IMG/VR virus record: IMGVR_UViG_3300030099_000229
Location: 1 to 30,013 of that record
Length of the DNA stretch: 30,013 nucleotides
Reading direction: 5' to 3' (one strand)
Origin: a virus
Shown here: positions 6,751 to 29,515 of the stretch, piece by piece
Layout of the letters: each line of letters starts with the position of its first letter
Position numbering within the stretch: the stretch's first letter is position 1
The notes under the pieces: model-generated
What the model was told of the DNA's origin: nothing
Database searches by the model: none
The model's input: the letters and a program-made list of their open reading frames with translations, nothing else
Translations under genes and position numbers: made by a program

Positions 6751-6996
6751 ATGGCTTATACAGCAACTTCATTGTTTAAAGTCGGTGGTGCTAACCCTGG
6801 ACTTTGGATATACAAATCTGCTGATGCTATTTCAAGTATAATAGCTAGTGGATATTTTAATGATGCAACTAATGAACTAAAAGAACATGATGTTATTATA
6901 GTCGTAGGTGCAACTGGTGGTTCTGAAACAGTAGATGTCATTGTCGTTACAAGTGCGACAGGTGCGGCAACTGTTACAACAGTTAACGGAACTTAA
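6751..6996 (+). CDS. Putative head decoration or stabilisation protein
   Basis: An 81-aa protein directly after the capsid gene with an AGGGGTAAAC site. It is rich in Gly, Thr, Ala and Val and beta-strand prone: WIYKSADAISSIIASGYF, then HDVIIVVGATGG, and the ending SATGAATVTTVNGT. Its length, composition and location fit the small beta-rich decoration proteins found next to capsid genes in pelagiphages. There are no Cys, signal peptide or membrane segment. The role is inferred mainly from position. The stop TAA is followed by a two-codon ORF (ATG GAG TAG) and a strong hairpin. Confidence 0.72.
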   Translation: MAYTATSLFKVGGANPGLWIYKSADAISSIIASGYFNDATNELKEHDVIIVVGATGGSETVDVIVVTSATGAATVTTVNGT

Positions 6997-7001
6997 TGGA
7001 G

Positions 7002-7023
7002 TAGGGGGAGGTAACTCCCCCTA
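7002..7023 (+). promoter_or_regulatory. GC-rich hairpin with GTAA tetraloop between head and tail genes
   Basis: TAGGGGGAG (7002-7010), loop GTAA, CTCCCCCTA (7015-7023): a perfect 9-bp stem closed by a GNRA-type tetraloop, striking in such AT-rich DNA. No U tract follows (AACATTATATGG), so it is not a classical terminator. It lies between the capsid/decoration genes and tail tubular protein A, the place where T7 has its late terminator Tphi. It also contains GGGGGAGG, the only Shine-Dalgarno-like stretch before the ATG at 7031, and would hide it when folded. Possible jobs are mRNA 3'-end stabilisation, partial termination or translational damping. Confidence 0.75.
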
Positions 7024-7030
7024 ACATTAT

Positions 7031-7654
7031 ATGGCAACAACAAAAATAGATATATGTGCGAGAGCACTTGTAATGATAGGAGCAAGTCCTATTACATCTT
7101 TTACAGACGGAACGACAGAAAGTACAGTAGCTAGTAATCTTTATGAAGATACTATAAAGAATATGTTATCTAGTTATCGCTGGAGATTTGCTAGTAAACA
7201 AGCACAACTATCAAGATTAACAGATGCACCAGATCACAAATGGGATGCCGCTTATCAACTACCACCAGAATTAGTAGGTTTGCATGGTGTATTTGTAAAT
7301 GATATGCCAATTAAGTTTGAAAGATATGGTGATATGGTTTATAATGATGCAGTATCTACTGATAAAGTATATGTTGATTACACATATTATGATACAACAG
7401 CTTCTAATCCAGAAGAATTTTTTCCAGCATATTTTATATTTACTGCTGAACTATCATTAGCTTCTATATTTGCATTTGCAGTTGCACAAAATACTGCACT
7501 ATCTGATTCTTTAGAAACTAAAGCACAAAGACAATTAGCTATAGCTAAAAATTTAGATTCACAACAAAGAACATCTAGTAGACTTCGAGTTACTAGATTT
7601 AATAATACTCGTAATTCTACAGGAGCTTCTAACATAGAAGGGATTGTAGAGTAG
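7031..7654 (+). CDS. Tail tubular protein A (gp11-like)
   Basis: A 207-aa T7 gp11-type adaptor that forms the ring between portal and nozzle. The N-terminus KIDICARALVMIGASPITSF and the segment YRWRFASKQAQLSRL, followed by WDAAYQLPPELVGLHGV, are characteristic of this family. The C-terminus (RLRVTRFNNTRNSTG) is basic. Position after the capsid module and before gp12 is canonical. The ATG lies 7 bases after a strong hairpin that contains the only Shine-Dalgarno-like bases, so initiation may be regulated by that structure. It is followed immediately by the gp12 homologue. Confidence 0.88.
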   Translation: MATTKIDICARALVMIGASPITSFTDGTTESTVASNLYEDTIKNMLSSYRWRFASKQAQLSRLTDAPDHKWDAAYQLPPELVGLHGVFVNDMPIKFERYGDMVYNDAVSTDKVYVDYTYYDTTASNPEEFFPAYFIFTAELSLASIFAFAVAQNTALSDSLETKAQRQLAIAKNLDSQQRTSSRLRVTRFNNTRNSTGASNIEGIVE

Positions 7655-19354: not shown

Positions 19355-21430
19355 ATGGCTATAGTCGTAAATGATACAACACCAAGAAACCAATACACAG
19401 CTACGTCTGCACAGACTACGTTTACTTACTCCTTTGAAATATTTGAAGTTACTGATATTAAAGTATTTCAAGGTTCTACACTCCTAACATATGCAAGTAG
19501 TCCTTCGGACAAAACTGAGTATAGGGTTACTGGTGCTGGTACGTCAGGTGGTGGCACTATCGTATTAGGTGGTGGTGCTACTGCTAGTGATATATATACA
19601 CTGGTAAGAGATATACCTGTTGCAAGAACAACAGATTTTCCTACATCTGGTCCGTTTGTAATAGATAGTTTAAATACTGATCTTGATAAAATGGTTGCTA
19701 TGATGGGTGAAAGAGAAGATGAGATAGCAAGGTCAATAAGACTTACTGATGATGATGCTTCTGCAACATTAACATTACCACTCAAGGCAAGTAGAGCAAA
19801 TAAAGTATTAACATTTGGTAGTACAGGTAATGTAGAAACTTCAATTACTGCTGTAGATGTAACTACAGTTGCTGGCATTTCAAGTAATATAACAACATTA
19901 AGTGGTATAGCTAGTAATGTAACAACAGTAGCTGGCATAAGTAGTAACGTAACTACTGTTGCTGGTAAATCATCAGAGATAACTTCTGTTGCGGCAGTTG
20001 CTAGTTTAATAACTTCAGACTTTGTATCGGATCTGAATACTTTAGCAGTAACAGACGTAGTAAATGATATTAATACATTGGCTACTTCTGATATTGTAAG
20101 TGATCTTAATACACTAGCAACATCAGATATAGTTAGTGATTTAAATACCTTAGCAACAAGTGATATTGTTTCTGATATAAATACTCTTGCTACAAGTGAT
20201 ATAGTAAGTGATTTAAATACACTTGCTACTAGTGATTTTGTATCAGATTTAAATACTATAGCTACCTCTACAAATGTAACTAATATTGCTACAGTTGCTG
20301 GTAATAACTCAAACATAAATACAGTTGCTGGTATAAATGCAAATATTACTACTGTAGCTGGTATATCAAGTAATGTTACAACAGTTGCTGGTATCACAAG
20401 CAATATAGGTACAGTTGCTGGCATAGCATCAGATATAACTACAGTTGCTGGCAACAATACAAATATAACTACTTTAGCTGGTATTAGTTCAGATGTTACT
20501 TCTCTTGTAAGTGCTCTTGCATCTACTACAAATTATGCAGTTACAGTAGCAAGTGGTACACTATATGGTGGTGGTTCTGGTAATGTATTTTATTTAGATG
20601 GAACAGGTAACCCAGCTATTACTTTAATAAGAGGTAATACTTATGTATTTGATCAAAGTGATTCTAGTAATGCTACACATCCAATAGCATTTAGAACAAG
20701 TGCAGATGCTAGTTATACAACAGGTGTAACTTCTACTGGTACTCCTGGAAATGCTGGAGCAAAAACTACGTTTGTAGTTCCTTCAGATGCACCAGCTTCA
20801 TTAAAGTATTATTGTACTTCACATGGTAATGGCATGGGTAATGTGATTACAGTAGAAACTTCTAACATTAATGTGGTTGCTAGTAATATAGGTGAAGTAA
20901 ATAGTTTTGCACAAAGGTATAGAGTAGCTAGTAGTGATCCTACTGCATCATTGGACGAAGGCGATCTTGTATATAACAGCACAGCAAATGTATTAAAATA
21001 TTATAATGGTTCAGCTTGGGTAACTATTGTTGCTGGTTCATTAACTGATATTGTTCAGGATGGAAGTCCACAATTAGGAGGAAACCTTGACGTACAAACT
21101 AATTCAATAGTTTCTACTTCTAATAGAGATATTAATATAACACCTGATGGTTCAGGAAAAGTAGTATTAGATGGATTAAGTTATCCAGTATCAGATGGTA
21201 CAGCAAATCAAGCTATAACAACAGATGGTTCTGGTACTCTTACTTTTTCTACAATTCAAGCAAGTGAGTTGACAACTGTTGGAAATTTGTTTAGTAATTA
21301 TAATAGTGTAAGTAGTAATACTACTTCTACAACAGCCAGTACAAAAAATGCGTTTCTTTTTGGACCGATAACTGTAAGTGGTTCTGCTACTTGGACAATA
21401 GATGGAAATGGTACATTAGCAATTTTATAG
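19355..21430 (+). CDS. Tail fibre with T7 gp17-type N-terminus and cupredoxin-like domain
   Basis: A 691-aa adhesin. Residues 1-130 (TPRNQYTATSAQTTFTYSF, later IDSLNTDLDKMVAMMGERED) match the T7 tail-fibre attachment domain. Residues about 171-382 are tandem repeats: four 10-residue TVAGISSNVT-type units, seven 12-residue TSDIVSDLNTLA-type units, then seven more of the first type, probably a trimeric shaft. Residues about 395-508 look like a cupredoxin beta-sandwich, with H442 (ATHPIAF) and the C-T-S-H-G-N-G-M cluster C487, H490, M494 placed like type I copper ligands. The rest is beta-rich, with a typical YYNGSAWVTI segment. The start ATGGCTATAG has AAGGA 7 bases upstream. Copper binding is inferred from residue pattern only. 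Confidence 0.9.
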   Translation: MAIVVNDTTPRNQYTATSAQTTFTYSFEIFEVTDIKVFQGSTLLTYASSPSDKTEYRVTGAGTSGGGTIVLGGGATASDIYTLVRDIPVARTTDFPTSGPFVIDSLNTDLDKMVAMMGEREDEIARSIRLTDDDASATLTLPLKASRANKVLTFGSTGNVETSITAVDVTTVAGISSNITTLSGIASNVTTVAGISSNVTTVAGKSSEITSVAAVASLITSDFVSDLNTLAVTDVVNDINTLATSDIVSDLNTLATSDIVSDLNTLATSDIVSDINTLATSDIVSDLNTLATSDFVSDLNTIATSTNVTNIATVAGNNSNINTVAGINANITTVAGISSNVTTVAGITSNIGTVAGIASDITTVAGNNTNITTLAGISSDVTSLVSALASTTNYAVTVASGTLYGGGSGNVFYLDGTGNPAITLIRGNTYVFDQSDSSNATHPIAFRTSADASYTTGVTSTGTPGNAGAKTTFVVPSDAPASLKYYCTSHGNGMGNVITVETSNINVVASNIGEVNSFAQRYRVASSDPTASLDEGDLVYNSTANVLKYYNGSAWVTIVAGSLTDIVQDGSPQLGGNLDVQTNSIVSTSNRDINITPDGSGKVVLDGLSYPVSDGTANQAITTDGSGTLTFSTIQASELTTVGNLFSNYNSVSSNTTSTTASTKNAFLFGPITVSGSATWTIDGNGTLAIL
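19865..19984 (+). repeat. Four 30-base units coding TVAGISSNVT-type repeats
   Basis: Four in-frame 10-residue units in the tail fibre (T-V-A-G-x-S-S-N-x-T pattern). Same family as the block at 20291-20500. They are protein repeats; the DNA copies differ at third positions. Confidence 0.85.
20012..20263 (+). repeat. Seven 36-base units coding TSDIVSDLNTLA-type repeats
   Basis: Seven consecutive 12-residue units begin at 20012, 20048, 20084, 20120, 20156, 20192 and 20228. Protein copies are nearly identical (TSDIVSDLNTLA and close variants), but the codons differ a great deal, for example ACT TCT GAT, ACA TCA GAT and ACA AGT GAT for the same T-S-D. They probably form a fibrous shaft. Confidence 0.9.
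20291..20500 (+). repeat. Seven 30-base units coding TVAGxxSNIT-type repeats
   Basis: Seven consecutive 10-residue units start at 20291 and every 30 bases to 20471, as T-(V/L)-A-G-x-x-(S/A/T)-(N/D)-(I/V)-(T/N/G). They continue the repeat family seen at 19865-19984 after the 12-residue block, so the shaft alternates two repeat types. Confidence 0.88.
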
Positions 21431-25312: not shown

Positions 25313-25570
25313 TCACCTCACTACTTTATATTTATCAACTGTTATCTTTCTTGTTTTTTTTCTACTAACCTTAACTTTAGAATTTTCAGATCCCCCTTTT
25401 TTTTGTGGAGGGGGTTCCGAAAATTCTAATTTCATTCCTTTTACAACTGCTTTATCATAGCAATCCCTACAATAAAATGTACCACCTTTCCATTTTACTG
25501 CGTTTTTAGTGCAATACTTACACTTTTTTTTCATACATGCTTTTCTCCAAGCATCATCAAATATACCCAC
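25313..25570 (-). CDS. Zinc-ribbon protein
   Basis: An 85-aa protein with two Cys-x-x-Cys pairs, CKYC and CRDC (C17, C20, C34, C37), that would form a four-Cys zinc ribbon. The C-terminal half is disordered and basic (PPPQKKGG, then RKKTRKITVDKYKVV). The GTG start is chosen because TAGGAGG lies 5 bases upstream. The gene ends 1 base before the endolysin start codon, and its stop overlaps the endolysin Shine-Dalgarno. A 20-bp hairpin (25377-25429) lies within the coding sequence. Small zinc ribbons of this kind occur in many phages; DNA, RNA or protein binding is possible and no exact family is recognised. Confidence 0.75.
   Translation of the reverse strand: MGIFDDAWRKACMKKKCKYCTKNAVKWKGGTFYCRDCYDKAVVKGMKLEFSEPPPQKKGGSENSKVKVSRKKTRKITVDKYKVVR
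25377..25429 (-). repeat. 20-bp imperfect hairpin inside the zinc-ribbon gene
   Basis: Arms 25377-25396 and 25410-25429 pair over 20 positions with one A-A mismatch and one G-U pair on the minus-strand RNA, around a 13-base loop with eight A bases. The stem ends in a G5/C5 block next to the loop. In AT-rich coding DNA such pairing is very unlikely to be chance. It encodes about residues FSEPPPQKKGGSEN. Possible roles are an RNA regulatory element upstream of the endolysin, or the remains of an inserted palindrome. Confidence 0.85.
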
Positions 25571-25579
25571 CTATACCTC

Positions 25580-25807
25580 CTACAAGTATACTACATTACC
25601 TTTAGTATTCTGTGCAAGATTTACTTTTATCCCATAACATTTTGATAGCAGTTTAATTGTTCTGGGACTAGGTATAGTTCTTTCAGAGTTTACAATAGTT
25701 GATATAGACAAGCCAGTTTCGTTGCTCGCATCTAAATAAGTATACGAGCAATTTATTCTGGCTTTACGGAGAATCTTACAAATGTTAGAATGGTGGTGCG
25801 TCGTCAT
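25580..25807 (-). CDS. XRE-type helix-turn-helix protein
   Basis: A 75-aa Cro/CI-type DNA-binding protein. ICKILRKARINCSYTYLDA and ETGLSISTIVNSERTIPSP have the five-helix XRE layout, with the recognition helix at about STIVNSERTI, followed by RTIKLLSKCYGIKVNL. It has no oligomerisation domain. Its start overlaps the SSB end by 23 bases, and it ends 9 bases before the zinc-ribbon start. It may act as a repressor of early genes or simply as a small accessory regulator. No strong Shine-Dalgarno is visible at the ATG, which fits coupling to SSB. Confidence 0.78.
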   Translation of the reverse strand: MTTHHHSNICKILRKARINCSYTYLDASNETGLSISTIVNSERTIPSPRTIKLLSKCYGIKVNLAQNTKGNVVYL

Positions 25808-26853: not shown

Positions 26854-27669
26854 TCATTCTCCTTTTGTTTTGACAACAAGTGTACCTTTCTTGTTGCGTG
26901 TTATTACATAGTTACTGTTAGGAAACTCACATCTTCTAGCATCCTTAGGTACAAGTAACTTCATCTTCTTCTTCGTTTCTTCGAAGCTGGTAACAGCACC
27001 TTGATACTGATTCATCATACCATCAAGGCTTCTGTATAATTCATTATCAAACTCAAGATAGTCTTTCATACCATCTACAAGTACATGTTCTTCTGCCAAA
27101 GTTTCAATAGCACTTTTGCCACTTGATTCTGGTGGTTGCTTGTCATTCTTTACGAACAACCAAAACCTTTTCATCTTTGCAAATAGTCTGTCATAAAATT
27201 CTTGATTCCAATCTACTCTAACGACTTTGGGATCATCATTACCAAGTATGACAGATAGGTAGCAATAGTCTTGACAATATACTTGCATATAATGATGTAG
27301 TTGTGGTGCGTAATATCTAGCTTTTTGTTCAACAGTTGCTCTAGCATTACTGTGTTTACATTCTAGTATTACACCATCTACTTTAGCATCAAGATGAGCA
27401 AACAATGGTACATCTCTAAATGTAAATTGTTTTACTTCTTTTCCTGGTGTAGGTCTAGTTACAATACTACCAGCAAACTCTGTTTTAGCTAACCATTCAA
27501 TATGAAATGATTCAGTATGTACTCCAAGTTGCACACGAAATACATCAGATAAATCTTCTTCTATATCTCTTTTAGTTTTTACTTTCCATAGTTGTACTAG
27601 GTTTTGGTTGTGCCATATTCTATTGGCATCACTACCACCTAGTCCGGTTGTTCTGTCTATTACAAACAT
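26854..27669 (-). CDS. YqaJ-type recombination exonuclease
   Basis: A 271-aa PD-(D/E)xK nuclease of the YqaJ/lambda-exonuclease class. Motifs are TTGLGGSDANRIW at the N-terminus (the family's 'G-G-S-D/E' substrate motif), QLGVHTESFHIEWL, and LFAHLDAKVDGVILECKHSN with D94 and E103-x-K105 as metal ligands. QLHHYMQVYCQDYCYLSV follows as the usual Q-x-x-H/Q-x-x-x-Y helix. It resects DNA ends and hands strands to ERF. I prefer the start at 27669, 7 bases after GGAG, over upstream Met codons, because the promoter and leader found at 27676-27722 lie in the longer reading. It begins the second transcription unit of the early block. Confidence 0.88.
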   Translation of the reverse strand: MFVIDRTTGLGGSDANRIWHNQNLVQLWKVKTKRDIEEDLSDVFRVQLGVHTESFHIEWLAKTEFAGSIVTRPTPGKEVKQFTFRDVPLFAHLDAKVDGVILECKHSNARATVEQKARYYAPQLHHYMQVYCQDYCYLSVILGNDDPKVVRVDWNQEFYDRLFAKMKRFWLFVKNDKQPPESSGKSAIETLAEEHVLVDGMKDYLEFDNELYRSLDGMMNQYQGAVTSFEETKKKMKLLVPKDARRCEFPNSNYVITRNKKGTLVVKTKGE

Positions 27670-27693
27670 ATTCATTCTCCTTTTGCTAATAAA

Positions 27694-27722
27694 ATTATAA
27701 TGCATTTCTGCATTGTAATCAA
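27694..27722 (-). promoter_or_regulatory. Sigma70-type promoter of the recombination genes
   Basis: On the minus strand, TTGATT (27722-27717), a 17-base spacer, then TATAAT (27699-27694, a perfect -10). The predicted start falls near 27687, so the leader to the ATG at 27669 is short and holds AAAAGGAG. The terminator just upstream makes an independent promoter necessary here. It is the best promoter match in the window. Confidence 0.8.
27699..27714 (-). promoter_or_regulatory. Palindromic operator candidate in promoter spacer
   Basis: AATGCA-TTTC-TGCATT is a perfect 6-bp inverted repeat that overlaps the -10 by one base and fills the spacer. The size and symmetry suit a dimeric Cro/CI-type repressor, and two such proteins are encoded close by. 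Binding is inferred, not shown. Confidence 0.5.
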
Positions 27723-27726
27723 GCAT

Positions 27727-27760
27727 AAAAAAAGCCTTGCAAAATAAATCACAAGGCTTA
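27727..27760 (-). terminator. Intrinsic terminator after the primosome genes
   Basis: On the minus strand AAGCCTTG (27759-27752), a 12-base loop, CAAGGCTT (27739-27732), then a run of T (total T7 at 27733-27727). The perfect 8-bp stem with a T tract is a classical rho-independent terminator, 20 bases after the stop at 27780. It separates the upstream replication genes from the recombination genes. Confidence 0.85.
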
Positions 27761-27779
27761 GAACAAATTGAAGAATGAA

Positions 27780-28211
27780 CTAGGTGAATGTTGTGAGTCT
27801 GTGTAAGACAGACCTACACCATCCAAGAAAACTTTGACAGAAATTTATCTTGTTGTCAACAGGTTCTCGTATTGTAGCTGGTAATGGAAACGTATTATAC
27901 TTGTGTGTTTTCATTACAGATACAATAGCATCTTTCAAGAATACAGCTGGTATATCTTTGATTGCTTCAATGTAATACTTTAAACCTTCACGTTGTGGTA
28001 GTTCAGTTTGAAATGTATTGCCTAGCACTTGCAAACTTTTTACAATAGTTTCGTTCGGAGCCGGTTGCATTTGTATTTCAAGATTATGAATTACACTATC
28101 AAGTTTCTTCTTGAGTGGTGCTAAATCTTTATGATCCTTTAGTTCTAGTAATGCTTCTGATGTTGCTCTCGCTATTGTATCTATCAAGATAATCTCCGAC
28201 TGCGTCAGCAT
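27780..28211 (-). CDS. Helicase-loader-like replication protein
   Basis: About 143 aa, helical. The C-terminal half (KYYIEAIKDIPAVFLKDAI, then HKYNTFPLPATIREPV) follows the pattern of phage helicase loaders and related replication proteins ('L-x-x-I-P-x-x-x-L-x-x-A-V ... F-P-x-P-x-E-I-R'), with Thr where Glu is usual. The open frame runs up to 28370, but that would overlap the DnaT-like gene by 242 bases, so I place the start at ATG 28211. A TTG at 28187 with GGAG 6 bases ahead is a serious alternative. The assigned role, loading a host DnaB helicase, is inferred from pattern and from the neighbour; confidence in function is low. Confidence 0.6.
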   Translation of the reverse strand: MLTQSEIILIDTIARATSEALLELKDHKDLAPLKKKLDSVIHNLEIQMQPAPNETIVKSLQVLGNTFQTELPQREGLKYYIEAIKDIPAVFLKDAIVSVMKTHKYNTFPLPATIREPVDNKINFCQSFLGWCRSVLHRLTTFT

Positions 28212-28482: not shown

Positions 28483-28853
28483 TCTTCAATCTCCTTTGCT
28501 GGTATTGTATGAATCTTAATACCATATGTTACTTCAGCTAATCTTTTCTTCAGCTTGTACGTGTCTGTCGTTACACCAATAACAGATTCTATTACAACAT
28601 ATCCTCTGTGATCATTAGGCTCAAGAGTAACATACCTAAAGTCTGCAATATAATCTGTTATACGCACATTGTTTACTACAACAGGTAGCTGTGGATTGAG
28701 TTCAAGATCAGTTATAAGTTTATCACGACCAAACTGGACTAACTGTAAGTATCTTTCTGCTTTGGCAGTAGAGTTGAAGTATACCATATTACCCTGGTAT
28801 GCTTCGTATCTACCACTAGATTTCTTTACGGATTTTTTCGTAATAGGTTTCAT
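28452..28853 (-). CDS. DUF1064-like nuclease with altered active site
   Basis: A 133-aa protein with the overall layout of the DUF1064 (phage endonuclease) family: VYFNSTAKAERYLQLVQFG, ITDLELNPQLPVVVNN, ITDYIADFRYV with D71, and TDTYKLKKRLAEVTYGIKI after the core. Relatives usually read E-D-V-K-G at the active-site strand, but here it is E89-S-V-I-G, so the Asp and Lys of the PD-(D/E)xK motif are replaced. The protein may have lost nuclease action or use different residues. The start at 28853 has GGA 9 bases before it; the longer reading (28904) would overlap the HTH gene by 89 bases. Family call from memory of the pattern. Confidence 0.75.
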   Translation of the reverse strand: MKPITKKSVKKSSGRYEAYQGNMVYFNSTAKAERYLQLVQFGRDKLITDLELNPQLPVVVNNVRITDYIADFRYVTLEPNDHRGYVVIESVIGVTTDTYKLKKRLAEVTYGIKIHTIPAKEIEEWKEIIPLNQ

Positions 28854-29028
28854 ATATATAATTCCATACTGTTTGTGCAGTTGATTCTCGTAAACAAAAC
28901 TCACCTGTCTTTATTCTATGATAGGTACTATCTTGAATACCAGACTTACGAAATGCTTCACGTAGATTGATACCTTTTTTGTCAGCTAATTTTTGTAACT
29001 GATTCATATAAGTATTAAGTTTATTCAT
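28816..29028 (-). CDS. Small helix-turn-helix regulator
   Basis: A 70-aa Cro-like protein. LQKLADKKGINLREAFRKSG and IQDSTYHRIKTGEFCLREST form the helix-turn-helix, with the recognition helix near DSTYHRIKTG. No Shine-Dalgarno is visible before the ATG, and the start codon lies between the arms of an 8-bp inverted repeat (29008-29041). It is the first gene after the long structured non-coding stretch. Its end overlaps the nuclease start by 38 bases. It may regulate itself or the divergence between early transcripts, but this is inferred. Confidence 0.75.
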   Translation of the reverse strand: MNKLNTYMNQLQKLADKKGINLREAFRKSGIQDSTYHRIKTGEFCLRESTAQTVWNYIYETYYEKIRKEI

Positions 29029-29041
29029 AATATATACTTAT
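29008..29041 (-). promoter_or_regulatory. Inverted repeat around the HTH start codon
   Basis: ATAAGTAT (29008-29015) and ATACTTAT (29034-29041) are perfect complements separated by 18 bases that include the start codon at 29026-29028. This could be an operator for the HTH protein itself or an RNA stem that presents or hides the start. No Shine-Dalgarno is seen in the loop. Confidence 0.5.
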
Positions 29042-29054
29042 CATAGTTAATGCA

Positions 29055-29111
29055 TAAGTGCAAGTGCTATGGTACTAGAAATTTTGTATACGCCATAGCA
29101 TCATGCACTTA
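29055..29111. ncRNA. Large hairpin 1 in the non-coding stretch 29029-29251
   Basis: TAAGTGCA (29055-29062) pairs with TGCACTTA (29104-29111), and TGCTATGG (29065-29072) with CCATAGCA (29093-29100): 16 bp in two perfect blocks, with a 2/3-base internal loop and a 20-base end loop. No T tract follows on either strand. It is not coding on either strand. With hairpin 2 it fills most of the only gene-free stretch over 200 bases in the window. Strand of transcription, if any, is unknown. Confidence 0.55.
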
Positions 29112-29116
29112 ACAAA

Positions 29117-29181
29117 TGCAATCCTTGAGAAAAGGTCTTGTACTAACTAACGATCAAATCAGTACAAGCACAAGGACTGCA
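29117..29181. ncRNA. Large hairpin 2 in the non-coding stretch 29029-29251
   Basis: CTTGTACT (29137-29144) pairs with AGTACAAG (29161-29168), TCCTTG (29122-29127) with CAAGGA (29171-29176), and TGCA (29117-29120) with TGCA (29178-29181): 18 bp in three perfect blocks, around a 16-base end loop and a lopsided 9/2-base bulge. It lies 5 bases from hairpin 1. The rest of the gap (29182-29251) shows nothing clear. Candidates are an untranslated regulatory RNA, an attenuator before the HTH gene, or a replication origin. Confidence 0.55.
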
Positions 29182-29251
29182 CTACATAGTAGCTTTCCCT
29201 AGTATCGGTTCTTTATATTGTTCTAGGTCTATCTATTACTCACTACTAATT

Positions 29252-29515
29252 CTATACGTTGGCTTCAGCTTCTAGTTCTAGTTCTTCTAACTTGTATTTT
29301 GCATCATACCAGTTATCGAATACCCAGTACTGTTTCTCTTGTAGCCAACCTTTATTCAAACAATTAATCATCTGATAGTAGTCTTTACCTACAAGATTAA
29401 AACCAGCACTGGTTTCTTCTACAATCCAGAATATATCTTTGCCACTCAATATTTTTTCTTTTGTACTTGAACAAGTTCTGTTTAACATCTTCTCTCTTAC
29501 TGTACCTATATACAT
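29252..29515 (-). CDS. 87-aa hypothetical protein
   Basis: An 87-aa protein with no recognised family. KDIFWIVEETSAGFNLVGKD and WLQEKQYWVFDNWYDAKYK are aromatic-rich, and the C-terminus is acidic (KLEELELEAEANV). It looks soluble and compact, possibly a small beta-alpha fold. Its ATG overlaps the preceding gene's stop as TAATG. The small size and early position are typical of phage host-takeover proteins, but nothing in the sequence shows a target. Confidence 0.65.
   Translation of the reverse strand: MYIGTVREKMLNRTCSSTKEKILSGKDIFWIVEETSAGFNLVGKDYYQMINCLNKGWLQEKQYWVFDNWYDAKYKLEELELEAEANV

Follow-up and report, generated by a model that had tools for sequence, protein, structure and literature searches.

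The window analyzed here, a stretch of 30,013 nucleotides spanning the IMG/VR virus record IMGVR_UViG_3300030099_000229, contains two minus-strand genes, p87 and HTH70, separated by the longest ORF-free stretch of the whole sequence (positions 29029-29251); the only ORFs overlapping this gap, of 20 and 28 aa, are both on the plus strand. Two inverted repeats had been placed in the gap by a sequence-only reading, and both are present there. The corresponding hairpins, H1 and H2, are real, but the count of two was incomplete, as a third, weaker hairpin (H3) precedes H2 (Table 1). A DnaT-like gene is located near the hairpin block. By terminase, the nearest isolate is Pelagibacter phage Hodr (63.8%), which infects Pelagibacter HTCC1062, making a SAR11 host likely, though not firm. 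Among the early proteins of Hodr, only the DnaT-like and RecE-like ones yielded significant matches, and searches of phage isolates with the window DNA, the HTH protein, and the p111 protein returned no match. Elsewhere in the window, positions 19355-21430 (plus strand) encode a tail-fibre-like protein in which short, almost identical repeats (DIVSDLNTLATS, ITTVAGISSNVTTVAG) occur many times.

Table 1. Features of the hairpin locus and of the P3 junction
Feature	Position	Strand	Description	Evidence or remark
P3, before RecE	27694..27759	-	Canonical terminator (27759-27732), then TTGATT-17-TATAAT; dyad TGCA-GAAA-TGCA (27701-27712)	
HTH70	28816..29028	-	Small DNA-binding protein resembling Cro/CI (XRE); gene without Shine-Dalgarno; likely autoregulator	
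P2, HTH promoter	29029..29063	-	TTGCAC (29063-29058), 17 nt, TAAGTA (29040-29035), 6 nt, ATG; probably leaderless	
Operator-like dyad at P2	29051..29062	-	TGCA-CTTA-TGCA	
H1	29055..29111	-	3′ arm (UGCACUUA) overlaps -35 and operator of the HTH promoter	Inverted repeat; comparison with relatives
H2	29116..29182	-	Two 12-bp stems, outer and inner, on either side of an asymmetric internal loop; 8-nt loop	11 contigs, 7 distinct sequences
Terminator-like element in H2	29127..29168	-	Inner stem of H2 (29168-29137) and ACCUUUUCUC; weak, nested in H2	1 found, 0.3 expected
H3	29187..29248	-	Weaker hairpin preceding H2; other hairpins in its place in L018, L020, L004, L041	70/70 identical in L019
p87	29252..29515	-	Early gene upstream of the block	Stop codon adjoins P2 in hairpin-free relatives

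The hairpins had been proposed to form a leader controlling the HTH gene. This leader or riboswitch reading fails because the promoter of that gene, P2, lies directly 3′ of the hairpins, with its -35 element inside the 3′ arm of H1, although RNA reading through from upstream would still contain them. The P2 pattern occurs once per relative. In all 13 genotypes, the distance from the -10 element to the ATG is 6-7 nt and a Shine-Dalgarno sequence is absent at the HTH start codon, unlike at many other genes in the window; from this short gap and the missing ribosome-binding motif, we infer that the HTH mRNA transcribed from P2 is probably leaderless. Structure prediction, made with good confidence (pLDDT 88.6), gives HTH70 an all-helical Cro/CI-like fold; its best structural matches, which are statistically weak, are controller proteins of restriction-modification systems and other XRE regulators.

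The TGCA-N4-TGCA dyad of P2 remains complete in the absence of hairpins and is common to P3 and to the first early promoter, P1, the latter being represented in relatives with more upstream sequence. HTH70 would be the protein that binds this operator and is likely an autoregulator. A canonical terminator precedes P3 in most relatives; the segment carrying the P3 terminator and promoter (27653-27875) has the strongest fold of 260 controls (z about -9), and this junction is conserved in relatives. In a distant relative (L130; DnaT-like protein 44% identical), two large tandem hairpins, unrelated and without a U tract, are located directly before P3 (L130:3090-3233). Furthermore, a gene for a protein of ~125 aa (MGRYYHGDIEGKFWFG...) is found before P2 in L016 and L091, and after P3, before RecE, in L002, L004, and L019. 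Hairpin variation at P3 together with this roaming gene suggests that junctions combining hairpins with an operator-bearing promoter are swapping points, and the appearance of the gene at either junction can be taken as a sign of cassette shuffling.

The perfectly paired arms of H1 (29055-62/29104-11 and 29065-72/29093-100) and H2 (29117-27/29171-81 and 29137-44/29161-68) are extended on the minus strand by G·U pairs, which bring H2 to 12 + 12 pairs around an internal loop of 2 nt/9 nt with the invariant CCUUUUCUC. The predicted folding energy of H2 is -29.7 kcal/mol on the minus strand versus -17.3 kcal/mol for the complement, and that of the whole gap is -63.7 kcal/mol (z = -4.64) versus -50.0 kcal/mol (z = -2.87) on the plus strand. 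It should be noted that 3 of the 260 control segments (223 nt, same window) also reach z ≤ -4.6, that re-scoring of the gap with 60 shuffles gave z = -3.84, and that the hairpin site did not stand out in a 70-nt z-scan; thus, fold energy alone is neither decisive nor taken as proof, and it is the comparative data that settle the reality of the hairpins. Homologous gaps of relatives fold with z-scores of -8.1 (L004), -8.3 (L018), -6.2 (L020), and -5.6 (L021), and the sense direction folds better than the antisense in every hairpin-bearing genotype. A search for tRNA and tmRNA genes yielded nothing. Two further folds were observed in the window: the second strongest minus-strand control segment (25423-25645, z about -5.4), which overlaps the beginning of a small early gene whose product is cysteine-rich, and a hairpin of 9 perfect, G/C-rich base pairs closed by a GTAA (GNRA-type) loop and lacking a U tract (7002-7023, plus strand), situated in the interval that separates two late genes (stop codon of one at 6996, ATG of the next at 7031).

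Across the seven distinct H2 sequences, 98.2% of cells are paired, compared to 32-45% when the partners are slid by 1-3 columns. Nine of the 24 pairs vary. Six alternate between Watson-Crick and G·U only, the terminal one being also broken in L021; one runs through C-G, U-G, and U-A in different phages, a compensatory series and the sole true double change; and two deviate only as non-pairs (C-U in L021 and a position at the loop boundary in L041). A·C combinations are found in the stems of none of the seven sequences. Such a one-sided wobble pattern argues for selection on a single-stranded minus-sense sequence, most simply RNA, and supports the earlier suggestion of a structured RNA, with H2 folding in the minus sense and its pairing being kept through base changes. 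Classical covariation is suggestive but not proven: a column-shuffle control was not exceeded (144/500 for most measures), owing to the small number of sequences and the single double change. Convincing matches to a covariance model of H2 were confined to the copies at this site, which scored 75-99 bits in sense orientation against 13-25 bits in antisense, a result that is partly circular because the model was built from those copies. A peptide-coding role for H2 was considered and rejected, given an indel in the loop of L041 and no conserved ORF.

Sequences upstream of the HTH gene were compared in 25 viral contigs encoding HTH70 relatives. H2 is present in 11 contigs (7 sequences, the window included), always at a single site, and two pattern scans of IMG/VR detected no H2 outside this slot. 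Matches to the 5′-arm pattern in ~28 unrelated contigs had no H2 hairpin and were taken as chance occurrences in coding sequence, as was a match in L034; two 20-mer matches in Bacteroidota genomes were no more than expected by chance for that collection. The content of the slot is highly variable: H3-H2-H1 in the window, L001, and L019; a different first hairpin followed by H2-H1 in L018; H2-H1 in L021 and L022; a small hairpin and then H2 in L020; another large hairpin and a variant H2 in L041-L043; three other large hairpins and then H2 in L004; and a single unrelated hairpin, its 3′ arm again coinciding with the promoter element, in L006-L013. The slot is empty in L002, L003, L005, L014, and L015, where the p87 stop codon adjoins the promoter, and L016/L017 and L091/L092 have another preceding gene and no hairpin. 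Measured against the refuting condition set by the sequence-only reading, the outcome is split: hairpins are missing from some relatives that share the flanking genes, but where hairpins do occur, base changes preserve them.

Conservation of the hairpins is uncoupled from that of their surroundings. Compared with L005, flanks of 93-95% DNA identity surround an empty slot. Conversely, H1 (57/57) and H3 (70/70) are identical in L019, in which p87 and HTH DNA are 86% and 76% identical, respectively; H1 is also identical in L021 and nearly so in L018 (56/57). In L041, H2 matches at 61 of 63 aligned bases (97%), whereas p87 is 67% identical in DNA and 38% in protein, and p111 is 53% identical in protein. 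On a DnaT + p196 tree, the presence of H2 implies 5 changes; well-supported branches force at least 3 of these, and the total is no lower than with shuffled labels (mean 4.6). Absence of the block from near-identical relatives, combined with identity of H1 and H3 amid diverged flanks, argues that the block is an exchangeable, dispensable cassette and not an essential origin. Judging from these genomes, the role of the hairpins is optional, and phages without them are evidently viable.

Collectively, these observations make it likely that the block is an interchangeable RNA control point rather than the replication origin that had also been considered. The specific reading that we favor, with confidence somewhat short of even, is that of a modular intercistronic hairpin array at an early operon junction, which separates early read-through RNA from an autoregulated promoter. 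Transcription from P1 would read through p87 into the array, and the nascent RNA would fold into one to four tandem hairpins (here H3-H2-H1). By processing, stabilization, or attenuation, these would generate the 3′ end of the upstream mRNA or shield it; most probably they would act as a double-stranded site for processing like those of RNase III in T7 (or for processing of another type), with cutting or recognition probably taking place at the asymmetric internal loop of H2. In this way, the array may keep the upstream message separate from the following unit, which would start at P2 and yield the leaderless mRNA of the Cro-like HTH protein. The hairpins themselves are gained, lost, and exchanged among phages as cassettes. 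A bolder proposal, which we regard as unlikely, is that H2 and its companions exemplify a class of swappable phage RNA modules that has yet to be described, built of tandem hairpins, in which a host or phage protein would bind the invariant internal loop CCUUUUCUC and lineage-specific combinations upstream of the leaderless Cro-like regulator would set early-gene timing or evade host RNA degradation.

It is possible, although we consider it rather unlikely, that the array is instead a conditional terminator or attenuator, with the inner stem of H2 and the adjacent ACCUUUUCU halting some early transcripts before P2, subject to modulation by the outer stem or a protein. The sequence-only reading had noted no T tract on either side of the hairpins; this holds for H1, but the U-rich ACCUUUUCU follows the inner stem of H2, within the apparent internal loop, and is invariant in all seven H2 sequences. 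Furthermore, the canonical terminator of P3 occupies the same place relative to its promoter. An intrinsic terminator, however, combines a GC-rich stem with an immediate U tract, whereas the inner stem of H2 contains only three G-C pairs and is followed by ACCUUUUCUC, with an interrupted U4 after ACC, as opposed to U7 at P3. The hairpins of L018, L004, and L006, like H1, lack a U tract altogether. The inner stem may nevertheless act as a weak attenuator.

Two further explanations appear improbable to a similar degree. The first is a separate trans-acting phage small RNA or decoy, of which H2 would be the functional domain and CCUUUUCUC the binding site. Consistent with this, the letters of the H2 loop and internal loop are as conserved as its stems, and dispensability and horizontal exchange would be expected of an accessory factor. 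Yet no promoter-like site was found directly upstream of the array, the window contains no complement of the internal loop within one mismatch other than the loop itself, and searches of Rfam 15, at the gathering threshold and at E ≤ 5, returned no family; moreover, the array always adjoins or just precedes P2, a position needless for action in trans. The second is a recombination cassette without an RNA role, in which short TGCACTT repeats of the promoter element would let hairpins and small genes swap at early junctions. Indeed, AAGTGCA/TGCACTT is repeated at the hairpin ends, L004 has an extra 63-aa ORF between H2 and P2, and the ~125-aa gene changes junctions as described above, but the wobble-preserving changes on one strand of the stems would be left unexplained. 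A DNA-level element, whether accessory operator sites or a single-strand initiation site or origin for the DnaT-like replication protein encoded nearby, is very improbable: TGCAC half-sites do recur at the hairpin ends and G·T wobbles are tolerated in single-stranded DNA too, but close relatives lack the whole block and retain their replication genes, the P2 dyad needs no hairpin for completeness, and the reversal of GC skew lies near 25 kb, following gene direction, with no local change at the hairpins.

To our knowledge, gene regulation is almost undescribed in the compact genomes of phages that probably infect SAR11. At this concrete control point, hairpin modules swapped between close relatives come together with a Cro-like regulator, probably leaderless, whose likely operator is found at three early promoters, and the natural hairpin-plus and hairpin-minus phages with near-identical flanks constitute a ready-made comparison.

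Among known systems, the nearest structural model for H2 is T7 R1.1, a hairpin of 60 nt that lies between early genes and contains an asymmetric internal loop of 4/5 nt (PMC6121014). Both are hairpins of ~60 nt between early genes of one operon, with two stems, an asymmetric internal loop, and no need for a U tract (PMC6121014), and H2, with its 12 + 12 bp and 2/9 loop between minus-strand early genes, has the shape of an RNase III processing hairpin. The H2 loop is, however, more asymmetric than the 4/5 loop of R1.1, and the hairpins described here are tandem, optional, exchanged, and joined to an operator-bearing promoter, their cleavage being only predicted. In behavior, the array resembles the promoter early stem-loop (PeSL) cassettes found at gene junctions of T4-type phages, where small genes and hairpins are swapped; in both cases, a stem-loop and a promoter at a gene junction are exchanged between relatives. 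The array is set apart by its tandem hairpins, as many as four, by the operator-like dyad located within the promoter, by a probably leaderless regulator, and by its occurrence in a different kind of phage. The put antiterminator RNAs of HK022 likewise consist of two adjacent hairpins in an early transcript and are, in arrangement, similar cis-acting candidates; those hairpins are located just downstream of early promoters, whereas the array is found in mid-operon, with p87 before it and another promoter immediately downstream. At the P3 junction of the same phage, too, a hairpin immediately precedes a promoter that carries the TGCA-N4-TGCA dyad, but that hairpin is short and followed by U7, whereas those at P2 are long, arranged in tandem, and have no proper U tract. 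A search of the pelagiphage literature for hairpins or noncoding RNA found no relevant paper. What sets the array apart from the T7 hairpins and the T4 cassettes is the fusion of tandem, exchangeable hairpins to an operator-bearing, probably leaderless promoter.
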